Positions 22,329 through 28,478 of a stretch of DNA of 38,846 bases are shown here, one piece after another; the first letter of the stretch is position 1, and every line of letters begins with the position of its first letter. The DNA comes from Azohydromonas caseinilytica (GTDB taxonomy: Bacteria > Pseudomonadota > Gammaproteobacteria > Burkholderiales > Burkholderiaceae_C). The notes under the pieces are model-generated. The model did not search any database. It was not told the DNA's origin and saw nothing but the letters and a program-made list of their open reading frames with translations. Where the stretch lies: contig NZ_JABBFW010000040.1 in NCBI RefSeq assembly GCF_012927045.1, positions 1 to 38,846 of the forward strand. The letters run 5' to 3'. A program made the position numbers and the translations under genes.

Positions 22329-22432
22329 GGGTAGGGAGGCGGACATGGCGGCGTGGAGATGGTCGGGTACGGCCATGCGCGAGCAAGGCTCGTTCCGTGG
22401 CCCTGGCGGCAACGCCATCGCAGGTATGGGGC

Positions 22433-23278
22433 ATGCTGCGCCATCCCGCCTGCCCCGGCGCTTCCCCTGCCATCGCCATGCCCATCCCTCCTTCGCGAGA
22501 GCGCCATTCCAGTCCCGGGTCCCCCTCCCGACCCGGGCGGCTTGGCCGTGGTGTCGCCGGCCTGCGGCTCGGGGCAGCCGCGCTGGGGCAGAGCCTGGCC
22601 CGGCTGTGGGATGGTCCCGGGCGCATCACGGGCGCACTGGCGGGCGGTGCCCTGCTGGCCCTGGCAGGCCCGGCCTGGGCCCTGGCGGGGGTCCTGGGCG
22701 GTGCCTGCGCCGGTCGGATTGCCCTACGGCATCGGCGCATGACGGCGCGGGAATCTGCACTGGCGGCATCGGTGTTCGGCAACAGCCTGCCGGCCCCGCA
22801 CCGCATCGTGCTGACGGACCTGTGCGGCCTGGGCGGTACCTGCTTTGTCTGTCCCGGGCTGGGCGGGCAGATCCTGGTCAATCTGGGACGCCGCGGCTTC
22901 GACGATCCGATCGGCTGCTGCACGCCCACCTACGCTGCGCCGGGCAAGCTGTTCATTCATGAGCTGACCCATGCCTGGCAGCTGGCGCACGGCCATTACT
23001 TCCCGCGGCTGTTGCCGCGCCTCCTGGCAGGCCCTCGGGCCGGCGATGCCGTCTACCGGCCGCCGGCGGTATTGGTGCCGCCCTGGCCCAGGCTGACGCT
23101 GGAGCAGCAGGCCACGATCGTCGACGAGTGGTTCCATCCCGGGCGGCTCGGTCCGGCAGCCTGGTTGGGCTTACCGGGGATGTCCGAGGCTCATCCCTAC
23201 TGGTTGTATGTGCGGGACGTGATCCAGGCTGCTTCGCTACGCGGGCGATCGGGCGGTGGCACCGTCCAGTGCCTGTGA
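22433..23278 (+). CDS. Membrane protein with HELTH zinc-metallopeptidase-like motif
   Basis: About 281 residues. A glycine/alanine-rich hydrophobic region (GALAGGALLALAGPAWALAGVLGGACAG) spans residues about 60-100. The second half contains FIHELTHAWQLAHG, an HExxH motif with the tryptophan/glutamine seen in 'HELTHVWQ' proteins. A possible third zinc ligand could be a downstream glutamate or histidine, but none is certain. Several cysteines lie just before the motif (GGTCFVCPGLGG and GCCTPTY), which is unusual. The start is uncertain: ATG 22433, ATG 22478 and a GTG at 22397 are in frame. It is divergent to serA and its stop lies 55 bp before the first parS-like palindrome. Proteolytic function is not demonstrated; the HExxH may also be structural. 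Confidence 0.65.
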   Translation: MLRHPACPGASPAIAMPIPPSRERHSSPGSPSRPGRLGRGVAGLRLGAAALGQSLARLWDGPGRITGALAGGALLALAGPAWALAGVLGGACAGRIALRHRRMTARESALAASVFGNSLPAPHRIVLTDLCGLGGTCFVCPGLGGQILVNLGRRGFDDPIGCCTPTYAAPGKLFIHELTHAWQLAHGHYFPRLLPRLLAGPRAGDAVYRPPAVLVPPWPRLTLEQQATIVDEWFHPGRLGPAAWLGLPGMSEAHPYWLYVRDVIQAASLRGRSGGGTVQCL

Positions 23279-23332: not shown

Positions 23333-23349
23333 CGTCCCTAGTAGGGACG
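23333..23349. repeat. Candidate parS site 1
   Basis: The 17-bp palindrome CGTCCCTAGTAGGGACG, with 8-bp arms around a central G. It is one of three near-identical copies found only in the gap downstream of parB. Confidence 0.7.
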
Positions 23350-23467
23350 GCCTGACTCGTTGATTGCAACGCTGCGGCCCGCGGCCAAGGCCAGCTGCAA
23401 CCATACCGCTGCCGTCCGGTGGCAGGCGGCAGTGGGCCCGGTGCCGAGACATTGCGGGCGGGCTGAT

Positions 23468-23484
23468 CGTCCCTAGTAGGGACG
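23468..23484. repeat. Candidate parS site 2
   Basis: Identical to site 1 (CGTCCCTAGTAGGGACG) and extended by one more paired base on each side (T...A). It starts 135 bp after site 1. Confidence 0.72.
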
Positions 23485-23597
23485 ACTGCTGCCTCCGTCT
23501 TGCGGCAACGCCAACTCCGGCCAGGGAGAAACCGCGTTGCCGTTCGCCGGCTCGTGCCGGAGGCGCTCATGTCGAAACGCCGGTACGCCGACGGCCT

Positions 23598-23614
23598 CGT
23601 CCCTACCAGGGACG
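23598..23614. repeat. Candidate parS site 3
   Basis: CGTCCCTACCAGGGACG, the same palindrome with changes only in its centre; the outer 7 bp of each arm (plus a flanking T/A pair) are kept. It starts 130 bp after site 2 and lies 38 bp before the parAB terminator. Confidence 0.68.
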
Positions 23615-23651: not shown

Positions 23652-23683
23652 AAAAAAGCCCCGGGGCCGCGGCCACCGAGGCT
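23652..23683 (-). terminator. Rho-independent terminator of the parAB operon
   Basis: On the minus strand an 8-bp stem (AGCCTCGG ... CCGGGGCT, one G-T pair) closes an 11-base GC-rich loop and is followed directly by six T residues. It lies 21 bp past the parB stop codon and separates parAB from the parS-like sites. Confidence 0.85.
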
Positions 23684-23704: not shown

Positions 23705-24682
23705 TCACTGCGATTCGGTACGCAGCCGCAGGTAATTCATGATGGCGTTGACCGCCCCCTCGGCTTCGGACTCGTCGCTCAGCTTGATGGCCACCCGCGA
23801 GCCCTTGACGGAAACCATGGCGAAGACGCGGTCCTGGTGCATGACGCGCAGCTTCTGGGTGCCGACCACGGCCGCCGGCGCCGCGGCACCGCGCCCGGCA
23901 ACCGGAGCCGCGGCCTCGGCTGCTGACGAGACCACCGTCTCCTGGGCCGCCTGGGCGACCTGCCTGACCGCCTCGTCCTGCGTCAGCCGCTCTTCCACCA
24001 TGGCGCGCACCGCCTCGGTCACCGTCTCGGGATGCTCCTTGGCGAAGGCCACCAGCTTCTCGGCGCAGTTGGCGCCGACGGCAGCCGGACGGGTCTTGAG
24101 CAGCTCGATCGCTTCCGCGGGCAGGCGCGAAAAGGAGAAGAAGCGGGCCACCTGCGACTTGCTCCAGCCCGACTCCTTGGCCAGGTCCGCGTAGGAGCAG
24201 TCCTTGGAGTTCTGCCGCTGCGCGAAACCCAGGTACTTCTCGTAGTCGCTGAGCGCCGGCGCCAGCAGGTTGTCGAAGAAGACCAGGCGCTCGGCCTCGT
24301 CGTCGGACAGGTTGACCACGGAAGCGGCAATCTCCTCGCGCTGCAGTTGCGCGAACGCCGCCTTGCGGTGCCGCCCGGCGACGAGCTCGTAGCGCCCGTC
24401 GCGCTTGCGCCGCACCACCACCGGCGAGCTCTGCGGGTTGTGGCGCAGGTTCTCCGCCAGCGCCGCTACCCGCACCGGGTCGAGCGCGCCGACGTGGTAA
24501 GGGCCCTCATCGATTTGGTCGAGCCGCAGTTGCAGCGGCGTACCGCGCTCGACGTGCTCTTCGACCTCGCGCAGCAGCGCAATCGGCGCCGACACGCTGC
24601 GGTTGCGCCGTGGCGCCGGATCGGCCGGCTTGGAAAGGATCTGCGAGGTCAGCTCGCTCAGCAGGGATTTGCCCGATGCCAT
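23705..24682 (-). CDS. parB: ParB/RepB-type partition protein
   Basis: A 325-residue centromere-binding partition protein. The ParB N-terminal domain contains the CTPase/arginine-rich signature GRHRKAAF at 103-110. A helix-turn-helix follows (SYADLAKESGWSKSQVARFFSF, about 162-184), which should recognise parS. The C-terminal third includes an Ala-rich linker and a final dimerisation-type segment (MHQDRVFAMVSVKGSRVAIKLSDESEAEGAVNAIMNYL). The N-terminus MASGKSLLSELTSQIL resembles ParA-stimulating segments in plasmid-type ParB proteins. It is 13 bp after parA with a GGGAG ribosome site, in one operon. The layout is that of secondary-replicon ParB proteins of Burkholderiales rather than of the chromosomal Spo0J type. 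Confidence 0.93.
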   Translation of the reverse strand: MASGKSLLSELTSQILSKPADPAPRRNRSVSAPIALLREVEEHVERGTPLQLRLDQIDEGPYHVGALDPVRVAALAENLRHNPQSSPVVVRRKRDGRYELVAGRHRKAAFAQLQREEIAASVVNLSDDEAERLVFFDNLLAPALSDYEKYLGFAQRQNSKDCSYADLAKESGWSKSQVARFFSFSRLPAEAIELLKTRPAAVGANCAEKLVAFAKEHPETVTEAVRAMVEERLTQDEAVRQVAQAAQETVVSSAAEAAAPVAGRGAAAPAAVVGTQKLRVMHQDRVFAMVSVKGSRVAIKLSDESEAEGAVNAIMNYLRLRTESQ

Positions 24683-24695
24683 GTTGTGCTCCCGT

Positions 24696-25976
24696 TCAGG
24701 CCTGGGCCGGCAGGCGCCACAGCGTGCTGCGCGTCATGTGCTCCACCAGGTCCACGGCCTTGTCGTAGGCGTCGCGGGCGCGCAGCAGCGTCTTCTGGCT
24801 GCCCACGTACTTGGAGATGTCGTACACGGTATTGAGGCTCATGCCGCCGACGCGTACCGCCGCGGTCTCCGGGATTTCCAGGTTCAGCAGGTGGCGGCCG
24901 AAGCCGTCCTGCATCCACTTCAGGATCTCCTTGGTGTGCAGCTTGGTGTTGTCCACCTTGCTCGGCACGACGCCAATCCACGAGTAGACCTTGCTGGCCA
25001 GCCCGCGGTCGGTGCCGGCCAGTTCGGCCATCATCGAGAAGAACTGGCCCGAGCTGGTGAAGTCCAGGCCTTCGGGCGGCAGCGGCACCAGCAGCGCATC
25101 GGCAGCCCAGTAGGTGGTCATGGTCAGGTACGACAGCGCCGGCGGGGTATCGATGATGATGAAGTCGTACTCGTCGCGCGGACCCAGGCGCAGCGCGTTC
25201 TCCAGCACCTCCAGGAACAGGAAGTTGGGCTCCGCCGAGTTCTTCATCATCGCGGCCTGCTGGCGGATGGGCAGGAAGAACTCGCCCGCGAACAGCGAGG
25301 AATTGCCCGGCACCAGGTCGATGCCGTCCCAGTAGCTGGGCTTGATCGACTCCTGCAGCGTGGAGCGCGCGCCCTCGCGGTCGCGCGGCAGCATCAGCGG
25401 CATCACGGTTTCCTCGGCGTCGAAGTCCGTGGGCGTCAGGCCGAACAGGGAAGTGAGCGAACCCTGCGGGTCGTAGTCGATGCACAGCACCTTGTAGCCG
25501 CGCAGCGACAGGCCCTGTGCCAGCGACATGCTCAGCACGGTCTTGCCCACGCCGCCCTTGAAGTTGCCCACCGTGATGACGGCGCCCATCTGCCCTTCGG
25601 CGCGGTGGTACATCGAACCCTCGGCCCGCACCCAGGCGCGGGCATCCTCCAACGAGAACATGCGGTTGCGCGAGGCCGCGCGCTCATCGCTCACCGGCTT
25701 CTTGCCCGCGCCTGTGGGCAGGCCTCGCTCCTCGGCACGCTGCAGCAGGCGCTTGAACTTCTCGTAGGACTGCCCGCACAGCGCCGCCACCTGGGCCGCA
25801 TTGAACACCGGCGGCGCCTTCATGCCCTCGGGCCGGAAGATCACCTGCTTGATGCGCTCGTTCAGGTCCGTGACCCGCTCGCCCAGCTGCTGCAGGTCTT
25901 CCATCGACACCGAGCTCGCCGTCGCCACCGCGTCCTTGGGCTGCCGCTGCACCGCCCGTTCGTTGGCCACTTCCAT
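24696..25976 (-). CDS. parA: ParA partition ATPase (type Ia, with N-terminal DNA-binding region)
   Basis: A 426-residue Walker-type ATPase. The deviant Walker A motif is KGGVGKT at about 140-146, followed by YKVLCIDYDPQGSLTSLF (Walker A') and FIIIDTPPALSYL. The 130-residue N-terminal extension contains a helical, MerR/AlpA-like region (FNAAQVAALCGQSYEKFKRLL and SLEDARAWV), as in large type Ia ParA proteins that autorepress their operon. The ATG at 25976 has an excellent GGAGGAAA ribosome site and is preferred to an in-frame start at 26021. It works with ParB to position the replicon at the candidate parS sites. It is divergent to the rep gene across the iteron region. Confidence 0.95.
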   Translation of the reverse strand: MEVANERAVQRQPKDAVATASSVSMEDLQQLGERVTDLNERIKQVIFRPEGMKAPPVFNAAQVAALCGQSYEKFKRLLQRAEERGLPTGAGKKPVSDERAASRNRMFSLEDARAWVRAEGSMYHRAEGQMGAVITVGNFKGGVGKTVLSMSLAQGLSLRGYKVLCIDYDPQGSLTSLFGLTPTDFDAEETVMPLMLPRDREGARSTLQESIKPSYWDGIDLVPGNSSLFAGEFFLPIRQQAAMMKNSAEPNFLFLEVLENALRLGPRDEYDFIIIDTPPALSYLTMTTYWAADALLVPLPPEGLDFTSSGQFFSMMAELAGTDRGLASKVYSWIGVVPSKVDNTKLHTKEILKWMQDGFGRHLLNLEIPETAAVRVGGMSLNTVYDISKYVGSQKTLLRARDAYDKAVDLVEHMTRSTLWRLPAQA

Positions 25977-26066
25977 GTCTTTCCTCCAGGGGTTCGATTG
26001 ACGGGCTGCACTGTAAAGCACACGCCTACCCCTCGAACCCGCACTGCACTACGAAGCAACAAATCA

Positions 26067-26159: not shown

Positions 26160-26719
26160 CCCAAAAAAGCTCACCCGTGCGCTGGCCACGGCGCTGCAGA
26201 CGCCCGGGGGACCACCTCTCTGGCCGGGAGGCGGGGAGAAGGCGGTCGGCAAACCTTGCGGCGGCGCCCGCACGGTGTCCTGACCACCCCAAGAAAGCTC
26301 ACCTGACTGCCGGATGCCGGCCCCAGGAAAGCTCACTTCAAGCGTTCGAGGCGCGTTGCAACCCATCCCAAAAAAGCTCACCTGGGCGCGTCCGCGACAC
26401 GCGACCCGCCGCCCCAAAACAGCTCACCCGGGAATGTGCTAGCCGACAGCGCCGCGGAGCCCAAAAAGGCTCACCCGAAATGCACCCGGGTTGCCGTCGT
26501 GAACGGCAACGACGGCGCTATGAACCGAACCTGCTAAAAGCCGCCTGCCGCGGGCGCCACTGCCGAGCGGGACGGGGCAGCAGCGGCCTGGTTGCGCGCG
26601 CCAAGGACATATCCACTCACCCGACCGCCCAAAAGCGCTCACCTCCAGCAGGCCAGACGTCCATATCCACTCACCCACAGACCCAAAACGGCTCACCCAA
26701 GGCCCCAAAGCCGCTCACC
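26160..26719 (+). repeat. Iteron array (nine direct repeats, consensus CCCAAAAAAGCTCACC)
   Basis: Nine copies, all in the same direction, begin at 26160, 26288, 26322, 26367, 26413, 26460, 26628, 26682 and 26704. GCTCAC is invariant, the last base is C in all but the third copy, and the CCCA start is fixed; the A-rich middle varies (AAAAAA, AGAAA, AAACA, AAGCC). Start-to-start spacing is 128, 34, 45, 46, 47, 168, 54 and 22 bp. These are the expected binding sites of the Rep initiator encoded at 26865. Confidence 0.92.
26608..26697 (+). repeat. 54-bp composite repeat: variant iteron plus iteron, two copies
   Basis: CATATCCACTCACCC occurs at 26608-26622 and 26662-26676, exactly 54 bp apart. 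Each is followed 20 bp later (start to start) by a full iteron (26628 and 26682). The variant keeps the CTCACC end of the iteron. Its ATATCCACT block differs from the DnaA box TTATCCACA only at the first and last base. Confidence 0.7.
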
Positions 26720-26861
26720 TGAAATCGAAAAAAGCAAGGCTCATCAACTACTTGCGCGCGCATCAATCCTCAAGCACTCAACTCTGATTCTTCAAGCTCA
26801 TCAAGCGACCGATCGCGGTGACGAAACCAAGTGAACAACTTCCCGGCCCTCCACTTCGCCT

Positions 26862-26874
26862 CAGGTGAGCGCTG
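26862..26874 (-). promoter_or_regulatory. Inverted iteron at the rep start codon
   Basis: On the minus strand this reads CAGCGCTCACCTG, matching the right half of the iterons (closest to the copy at 26628). It is the only inverted copy and overlaps the GTG start of rep. In many iteron plasmids an inverted partial iteron near the rep promoter is the operator for Rep autorepression. Confidence 0.6.
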
Positions 26875-28478
26875 TTGACCCGAGCGCACTTATCGAGCAC
26901 AGTCCGGCTCCCCGTCGTGGAGCTGTCTTGAAAACGCCTGGACCATCGCAAGCCGAACTGCCCCTGAAGAGCCCGGGCCGCAGGCGCGCAGCCGGCGCCC
27001 AGGAGAGCCCGCCCAACTCACGCAAGGCGGCGGCACCGACGCTCTCCGTGCCACCGACGCCGCGCGGCGGCATGGTGGTCAAGCCGGTGGAAACCATCGC
27101 GCTGCGGGTGACGAAGGGCAAGGCCACGCTGCTGGGCCGTCGCTTCTGGAACTGCCTGGTCAAGCACGCGCAGCTGCACAGTCCCAACGCCGAGAACATG
27201 TACGAGATGCCGGTGGCGGTGCTGAAGAAGCTGGCCGGCTTCGACAGCAAGAACATGGAGGTGCTGGCCTCCACGCTCACCGAGCTGCAGACCATCGCGG
27301 TGAACTGGGGTGACAGCCCCAAGAACTTCTCCCGGGAGTCCTACCGCTGGGAGAGCGCGACACTGCTGAGCTACGCCTCCATCCGCAAGAAGGCGGGCGA
27401 GGGCCCCACGCTGGTGTTCGATTTCCACCCGGCGGTGCGGCCCTACATCCTCAAGCCCGAGGTCTACTCACTGATCTCGCTGGAGATCCAGCGGCGCTTC
27501 CGTACCGTGGGCGGGTTGGTGCTGTACGAGATCGGCGAACGCTATCTTTCCAGCCCGAACGGGCTCTCGGCCCGGCTGCACTGGACGGAGTGGCATCACA
27601 TCCTCACCAGCCGCAGCCGCGACGACAAGAGCGGCAAGGGCAAGTCGCCGGAGTGGAAGTACTTCAAGCGCGACGTGCTCGATCCGGCCGTGCGCGAGGT
27701 GAACAAGGAGCAGGACAAGTTCACCATCGATTACCACGTCGCCAAGGCCGGGCGCTTCACCACCGACTTGCAGTTCGTCGTCAAGGCCAACCGCAAGGCC
27801 CTGGCCGCGCCGGTGGACCTGGAGCAGTGGCAGCTCGATCGCCTGGCGCAGTGGGGCGTGCCGGGCACCGAGGCCGCCAGGCTGCTGGAGAAGCTTGGTC
27901 CCGGCGACCGCATCAAGGTCATCGAGACCGTGGAGCGGCGCCTGCAGAAGAGCGAGCAGCTCGGCGACGTCAAGAGCGTCCCGGCCTATCTGCACACGGT
28001 GGTGGCGCAGGGGCTGGAGAGCGGCGTCTTCAGCGGGGAGTTTCCCGATGTGCCGGACGCCGCGCCCAAGCCGGCCGCGGCACGCCGCGAGCGCGCCACG
28101 CCACCCGCTTCCGCACCCGCCGCGGTGACCGCACCGCCGGCTGCACCGGTGGTCCCGGCACCTGCGACAGGGCCTGCGCGCACGCCGGCCACAGCACCGC
28201 CCCATGCCCAGGAGCTGTGGATGGCGGCCAAGGACCTGTTCCTGACGCTGCCCGAGGCGCAGAAGCAGCACTGGTACGCCCGCTATGAGGCGCAGCGGGT
28301 CGGCCCCCAGTCGCCGCTGGCCGCGAGCCCGGACTACGGACGGCTGCCCGAGGTGCGCATCTGGCGCGACTTCATGAAGGCGCGCCAGCTCAATCCCAAC
28401 GCGAAGCTGGGCACCTCGGCGCTGGTGTACTTCTCCAAGTGGCTGGCGCCGGTGTGGGCCGAGGAAGGGCGCCTGTAG
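26865..28478 (+). CDS. Replication initiator protein (Rep_3-type), extended
   Basis: A 537-residue initiator, far longer than the usual 230-330 residues of Rep_3 plasmid initiators. Residues 1-68 are a low-complexity Pro/Ala/Arg leader. The winged-helix initiator region runs from about 70 to 330 (ALRVTKGKATLLGRRFWN, KKLAGFDSKNMEVLASTLTEL, YSLISLEIQRRFRTVGGLVLYEI, and SPEWKYFKRDVLDPAVREVN). A Pro/Ala-rich linker follows (about 395-450), and then a separate C-terminal domain of about 90 residues (ELWMAAKDLFLTLPEAQKQHWY to the end). It should bind the iterons upstream and open the origin. The start is a GTG at 26865, the first possible start after an in-frame stop; it lacks a clear ribosome site, and the ATG at 27072 is an alternative that would delete the leader. 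Confidence 0.88.
   Translation: MSAVDPSALIEHSPAPRRGAVLKTPGPSQAELPLKSPGRRRAAGAQESPPNSRKAAAPTLSVPPTPRGGMVVKPVETIALRVTKGKATLLGRRFWNCLVKHAQLHSPNAENMYEMPVAVLKKLAGFDSKNMEVLASTLTELQTIAVNWGDSPKNFSRESYRWESATLLSYASIRKKAGEGPTLVFDFHPAVRPYILKPEVYSLISLEIQRRFRTVGGLVLYEIGERYLSSPNGLSARLHWTEWHHILTSRSRDDKSGKGKSPEWKYFKRDVLDPAVREVNKEQDKFTIDYHVAKAGRFTTDLQFVVKANRKALAAPVDLEQWQLDRLAQWGVPGTEAARLLEKLGPGDRIKVIETVERRLQKSEQLGDVKSVPAYLHTVVAQGLESGVFSGEFPDVPDAAPKPAAARRERATPPASAPAAVTAPPAAPVVPAPATGPARTPATAPPHAQELWMAAKDLFLTLPEAQKQHWYARYEAQRVGPQSPLAASPDYGRLPEVRIWRDFMKARQLNPNAKLGTSALVYFSKWLAPVWAEEGRL

Follow-up and report, generated by a model that had tools for sequence, protein, structure and literature searches.

Genes and elements around the palindromes

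The window, which is the whole stretch of 38,846 nucleotides that was analysed, corresponds to an entire contig (C35, 38.8 kb) of an Azohydromonas caseinilytica genome of 98 contigs and 6.65 Mb. Its minus strand encodes a partition pair, namely a 441 aa Walker ATPase with an N-terminal extension, assigned as ParA by profile matches (24696..26021; the best NCBIfam models are of the RepA-partition and SopA types, each below cut-off), and a ParB of 325 aa (23705..24682) with a ParB_N domain and a parB_part match above cut-off. A RepA-type initiator with Rep3_N and Rep3_C domains is transcribed divergently from parA (26865..28478, plus strand), and between the two genes an iteron-like array of 11 copies of [GA]CTCAC[CT] (26161..26720, plus strand) marks the probable replication origin. 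The heptamer GGTGAGC recurs upstream of parB 11 times in A. lata (6.0 kb fetched) and eight times in A. aeria (3.5 kb fetched). On the other side of parB, a convergent ORF without Pfam or NCBIfam match (22397..23278, plus strand) bounds the intergenic gap; it is kept in A. lata (68% over 171 aa) and is unrelated to its Variovorax counterpart beyond the sites.

The palindromes lie in this gap. A re-scan of the window found the exact 17-mer CGTCCCTAGTAGGGACG at 23333..23349 (candidate parS site 3) and at 23468..23484 (site 2, contained in a 19-bp palindrome at 23467-23485), and the variant CGTCCCTACCAGGGACG, in which one arm pair is broken, at 23598..23614 (site 1, closest to parB, ~90 bp beyond its stop), no strand being assigned to any of the three. 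These positions, the spacings of 135 and 130 bp and the absence of any further copy in the window are as given in the original prediction: only these three places were returned at up to three mismatches, a setting at which 100 shuffles of the window yielded a mean of 0.05 matches and at most one.

The sites had also been placed just past a parAB terminator. Between parB and the palindromes, a terminator-like hairpin followed by T6 was recognized by eye on the minus strand at 23652..23683, its arms at 23657-23664 and 23676-23683 enclosing a loop of 11, and a similar hairpin and T-run occupies the equivalent place in A. lata. The consensus terminator scanner, which considers loops of 3-8, did not list this hairpin with its loop of 11, and RNAfold preferred a different pairing in the region. 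The palindromes are found between this terminator-like hairpin and the end of the convergent ORF at 23278.

The chromosomal-type parS TGTTTCACGTGAAACA is present twice on contig C1, ~4 kb from a distant ParB relative. Since the window carries its own Rep, ParAB and sites while chromosomal parS resides on another contig, it looks like part of a secondary replicon. Other genes of the window (2073-36358) include mdoG, aromatic-degradation-type genes with a XylR-type activator, a SerA-like dehydrogenase and type VI secretion IcmF, and its GC content is 0.70 as compared to 0.67 in 14 kb of contig C1. Gene content and GC may point to a chromid-like replicon.

Distribution of the site in the genome and among relatives

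Searching all 98 contigs for the 17-mer with up to two mismatches identified three places only, all 90-372 bp from parB, and the looser pattern TCCCTANTAGGGA with up to one mismatch matched the same three places in this genome. Scattered copies across the organism's own replicons (6.65 Mb, 98 contigs) were looked for and not found.

The surroundings of related ParBs were scanned for perfect palindromes present more than once, without the window site as a seed, and the same core was recovered. This shared core is the 15-bp sequence GTCCCTASTAGGGAC (GTCCCTA-S-TAGGGAC), which occurs just beyond parB in three copies in A. lata, two in A. aeria and four on the 801-kb replicon of Variovorax sp. SRS16, with the first site 86, 93 and 106 bp beyond parB, respectively. 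This ParB (84-100% identity) is encoded in three of the four Azohydromonas genomes examined, all three of which have sites; the fourth genome has no site cluster, its best ParB is 41% identical and a single place with two mismatches was found. When the same gap was compared across these related replicons, the longest invariant block of the three-species Azohydromonas alignment proved to be one palindrome, the remaining copies being shifted by gaps. Four Variovorax records match the 401-bp site stretch at 97.5-100%. The spacing near 130 bp, initially regarded as unusual in itself, is not a feature of the system: it is 54 and 78 bp in A. lata, 60 bp in A. aeria and 90, 90 and 152 bp in Variovorax, and a regular 130-bp phasing was rejected because the spacings differ among relatives. 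On the 801-kb replicon of Variovorax SRS16, an additional ParA/ParB pair lies between recJ and the initiator gene, near the main parAB (L053:3163-5024).

The ParB proteins of Variovorax and the window are 47% identical over 71% of the query, with identity of only 15% in the C-terminal third versus 56% in the helix-turn-helix segment. The heptapeptide SKSQVAR (ParB residues 174-180) is present in four of 115 de-duplicated ParBs, those of the window, A. lata, A. aeria and Variovorax only, and the same four are the loci with GTCCCTASTAGGGAC within 475 bp beyond the stop among the 115 representatives; a second Variovorax strain in the set of 62 also has SKSQVAR. In five more loci, whose helices read SxSHVxR, the inner core CCCTANTAGGG is found beyond parB.

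Among 399 evenly drawn Burkholderiales genomes, a sample with no other Azohydromonas, GTCCCTASTAGGGAC was detected in the organism's own genome only. Eleven viral stretches each hold one matching place, and the best ParB match there spans 46 aa (E 0.26); these candidate decoy copies were judged to be chance matches.

Odd palindromes at the parB 3' end

For a family-wide view, the stretch from -25 to +135 relative to the parB stop was searched for perfect palindromes made up of two 7-bp arms and a single central base. The ParB loci were de-duplicated at 90% identity (62 to 56, 21 to 15 and 69 to 44; 115 in total), and control windows taken from these loci supplied the expected counts. Such odd 15-bp palindromes are enriched in set 1 (16 of 56 loci vs 1.5 expected) and in both held-out sets, with 7 of 15 loci vs 0.75 expected in held-out set 1 (36 of 719 control windows) and 11 of 44 vs 1.7 in held-out set 2. 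Even palindromes without a gap, the Bsr architecture, were rejected as a common form, being present in 3/56, 1/15 and 1/44 loci against ~1.2, 0.3 and 0.7 expected. Even palindromes with a gap of four are enriched in set 1 (11/56 vs 1.7) and held-out set 2 (2/44 vs 0.6); these look like terminators because of their GC-rich appearance.

Of the 34 family sites, 29 have G or C at the centre, and of 35 arms (the 34 sites plus the window), 31 carry A at position 7 and 27 carry T at position 2. In the remaining 80 of the 115 loci, the scanned 160 bp lack a perfect odd palindrome; the window is counted apart, as its perfect sites are further out. Among these 80 are both plasmid-type paralogues of the same genome (C4 and C9), which have no odd palindrome in that 160-bp stretch and in which none occurs repeatedly within 3 kb. 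A second conserved odd palindrome, CCGTCTGCCANNNTGGCAGACGG, whose centre changes symmetrically among loci, is located 0.70-0.81 kb beyond the parB stop in Caballeronia/Paraburkholderia loci (L025:7497-7519 and L029:7484-7506, as well as L023, L031, L033, L034, L038, L039 and L043).

Covariation of the arms with ParB residues

If the palindromes are ParB sites, their arms should track the residues that touch DNA, not the whole protein. The arm identity of each pair of loci was therefore compared with the similarity of their ParBs in every nine-residue segment (317 in all). A. lata and A. aeria were omitted because they nearly duplicate the window locus, and the arm of the latter was set by hand from its perfect sites since these lie beyond the scanned stretch. 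An AlphaFold model of its ParB (mean pLDDT 82, pTM 0.58) has helices at 164-171 and 175-186, the latter being the predicted recognition helix, and a Foldseek search with this model retrieved structures of Noc, ParB and KorB. For the first 15 loci, the five top-scoring nine-residue segments start at 172-176 (rho 0.51, family-wise p 0.0097) and whole-protein similarity gives rho -0.12; the family-wise p is 0.021 after removal of Variovorax and 0.148, with the peak unmoved, after removal of three near relatives. Held-out set 1 alone (7 loci) shows no helix covariation (rho -0.27). In held-out set 2 (11 loci), the peak falls at 176 (rho 0.63, family-wise p 0.018) and the prespecified helix gives p 0.0003. 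The two held-out sets together (18 loci) peak at 199, off the helix (rho 0.39, family-wise p 0.036; helix p 0.013), and over the full set of 33 loci the maximum is at 176 (rho 0.36, family-wise p 0.0053), followed by 197-199. Arm sequence appears to track the ParB recognition helix, with the exception of the one small held-out set of seven loci.

Scoring of single residues against single arm positions points to a second DNA-reading residue, putatively residue 205. The pair formed by residue 205 and arm position 6 has a mutual information of 1.51 bits, the highest among the twelve pairs listed, and ranks second of 1855 by z (9.4) across 33 loci, ninth of 1792 in the first 15 loci and fourth of 1855 in the held-out 18. 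Asparagine is found at 205 in all ten loci with T6 and in none of the 23 others (Fisher 1e-8), threonine in all six G6 loci plus two A6 loci and histidine in two of three C6 loci, a rule that was first noticed by eye on the same loci that were later scored. High scores were also obtained for residue 180 with arm position 5, residue 176 with position 4, and residues 175 and 184 with position 2; residues distant from the helix are also in the pair list, at lower ranks. Among the 80 loci that lack a perfect site, an imperfect palindrome centred on TA-n-TA is present in 9 of 33 N205 loci versus 1 of 47 others (Fisher 0.0012), three of the nine having been seen before that test, and this centre occurs in 14 of 1147 control windows of N205 loci and 1 of 1640 of the others. 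CA centres associate with H205 (p 0.002) in the same 80 loci, and the GA, AA and AC centre classes show no significant association with residue 205 there.

ParB residue 205 aligns with the Noc arginine preceding HARA, which we take to be residue 201. In ParB/Noc, the residue numbered 201 was found by mutagenesis to read site position 6, the remaining specificity residues being 173, 179 and 184 (PMC7383237). This contact was known to us after the covariation scans and before the 205 rule was noticed.

Overall, it is probable that the ParBs of a clade of Burkholderiales plasmids and chromids recognize an odd 15-bp parS (approximately NTYYCWASTWGRRAN) at the parB 3' end, with residue 205 setting arm position 6 (N for T, T for G, H for C and mostly A/S/K for A) and helix residues 175, 176 and 180 setting positions 2, 4 and 5. 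Given such a simple natural code, the cognate parS could be predicted from the ParB sequence for many replicons. This family-wide code is more interesting but less certain than the parS assignment in the window.

Interpretation of the palindromes

The original prediction of a new parS is supported by the confinement of the copies to a single locus, their presence in the three of four Azohydromonas genomes that encode this ParB, the helix in common with the distant Variovorax ParB and the residue-base covariation; copy location, conservation and covariation with the recognition residues were all obtained by computation. As in type I ParABS systems, a repeated palindrome adjoins the parAB of its own replicon, which encodes a Walker-type ParA and a ParB with a helix-turn-helix. 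On these sequence-derived grounds, the three palindromes are very probably the parS centromere of the replicon on this contig.

Palindromes of this kind are typical of operators, and a gene annotated as a DNA-binding protein adjoins the Variovorax sites, so that a local regulator or replication-control factor other than ParB might be considered as the binding protein. However, the sites are situated between the terminator-like hairpin and the convergent gene, upstream of neither; the gene flanking them in Azohydromonas is unrelated to the one in Variovorax, whereas parB is common to both; and the arms change together with the recognition helix and residue 205 of ParB, which makes binding by another protein very improbable. 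Still less probable is that the palindromes act as RNA or DNA hairpins, i.e. terminators, REP-like or mobile palindromes: a 6-7 bp stem can be drawn by eye for each of them, and the gap-4 palindromes near parB of the relatives resemble terminators, yet no T-run follows the palindromes, no dispersed copies exist among the 98 contigs of the genome, a separate terminator-like hairpin is available at the locus, and a hairpin does not need the single-base centre, which is S in 29/34 family sites.

A further alternative accepts ParB as the binding protein and assigns the sites chiefly to replication control or autoregulation instead of partition. Iterons and repA are close to the locus, and parS2-B of Vibrio cholerae acts on replication and on parAB2 expression (PMC3141006, PMC3688505). 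As the sites are positioned at the end of parAB away from the origin and promoter side and are clustered like plasmid centromeres, this is considered unlikely. With the palindromes taken as parS, a ParB dimer (23705-24682) would place one recognition helix on each arm of the core, and residue 205, just past the helix-turn-helix, would read arm position 6. In the manner known for ParB, Noc and KorB, it may then load as a CTP clamp and spread onto adjacent DNA, and a type-Ia-like ParA would move the ParB-DNA complex and so bring about partition.

Comparison with known sites and significance

A close precedent is parS2 of V. cholerae chromosome II, NTTTACANTGTAAAN (PMC7022226), which has been described as limited to vibrios and photobacteria and as comprising ten consensus sites, most of them near oriII (PMC3141006). 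Both it and the window site are 15-bp odd palindromes of a secondary replicon in which the single central base is free, position 2 is T and the base beside the centre is A. By site consensus, the arm in the window is GTCCCTA, not NTTTACA, and three sites are clustered beyond parB, in contrast to the ten, mostly near oriII, of V. cholerae. The operator bound by the ParB-family protein KorB of plasmid RK2, ATTTTAGCGGCTAAAAG (PMC11790492), is likewise an odd palindrome with a central G, although its sequence differs and it serves as a regulatory operator; KorB matches the A1 profile weakly (E 0.0017). With these two precedents, the odd length pointed out in the original prediction is not new. Within the window's own family, locus L088 (genome G715) holds ATTTACACTGTAAAT 128 bp beyond parB, an exact match to the V. 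cholerae parS2 consensus.

The Bsr parS sites of Burkholderiales secondary replicons, which are 16 bp long with a central CG (PMC5450999), are also palindromes of ParABS systems, belonging to secondary chromosomes and plasmids within this order; the core GTCCCTASTAGGGAC is odd and without central CG, in agreement with the dissimilarity originally noted. The proposed difference from chromosomal parS was equally borne out: TGTTYCACGTGRAACA-type sites (up to one mismatch) are on contig C1 only, and chromosomal parS and Noc NBS are of even length and other sequence, with parS on the main chromosome. What is shared with ParB/Noc is the fold and the correspondence of the residue facing position 201, in the numbering that we presume, to arm position 6. 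The exact 15-mer was not found among the open-access PMC papers searched, and none of the matches listed from the wider literature reports this site in title or abstract; an earlier description may exist in Dubarry 2006 or Passot 2012 (J. Bacteriol.).

The newest part of these results is an apparent ParB-parS specificity code. They provide a candidate centromere for the Azohydromonas secondary replicon and four ~800-kb Variovorax replicons, and the relatives suggest how docking sites and their protein change together. With 115 de-duplicated ParB loci, 34 of them with a perfect palindrome plus the window, the evolution of ParB-parS specificity, which bears on replicon compatibility in multi-replicon bacteria, becomes directly testable. 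The residue-to-base rules were derived from naturally occurring variants, and one is consistent with the contact between residue 201 and position 6 established by mutagenesis in ParB/Noc. The A. aeria genome (G001, L076-L080) encodes five more plasmid-type ParBs, three of which have distinct odd palindromes (ATCTCTAATAGAGAT, TGACCTAGTAGGTCA and GTCTCAASTTGAGAC), and this set offers natural material for compatibility tests inside one cell. For plasmid pMOL28 of C. metallidurans (L091), the parS predicted from the N205 rule is CTTCGTACTACGAAT, an imperfect palindrome located 18 bp beyond parB.
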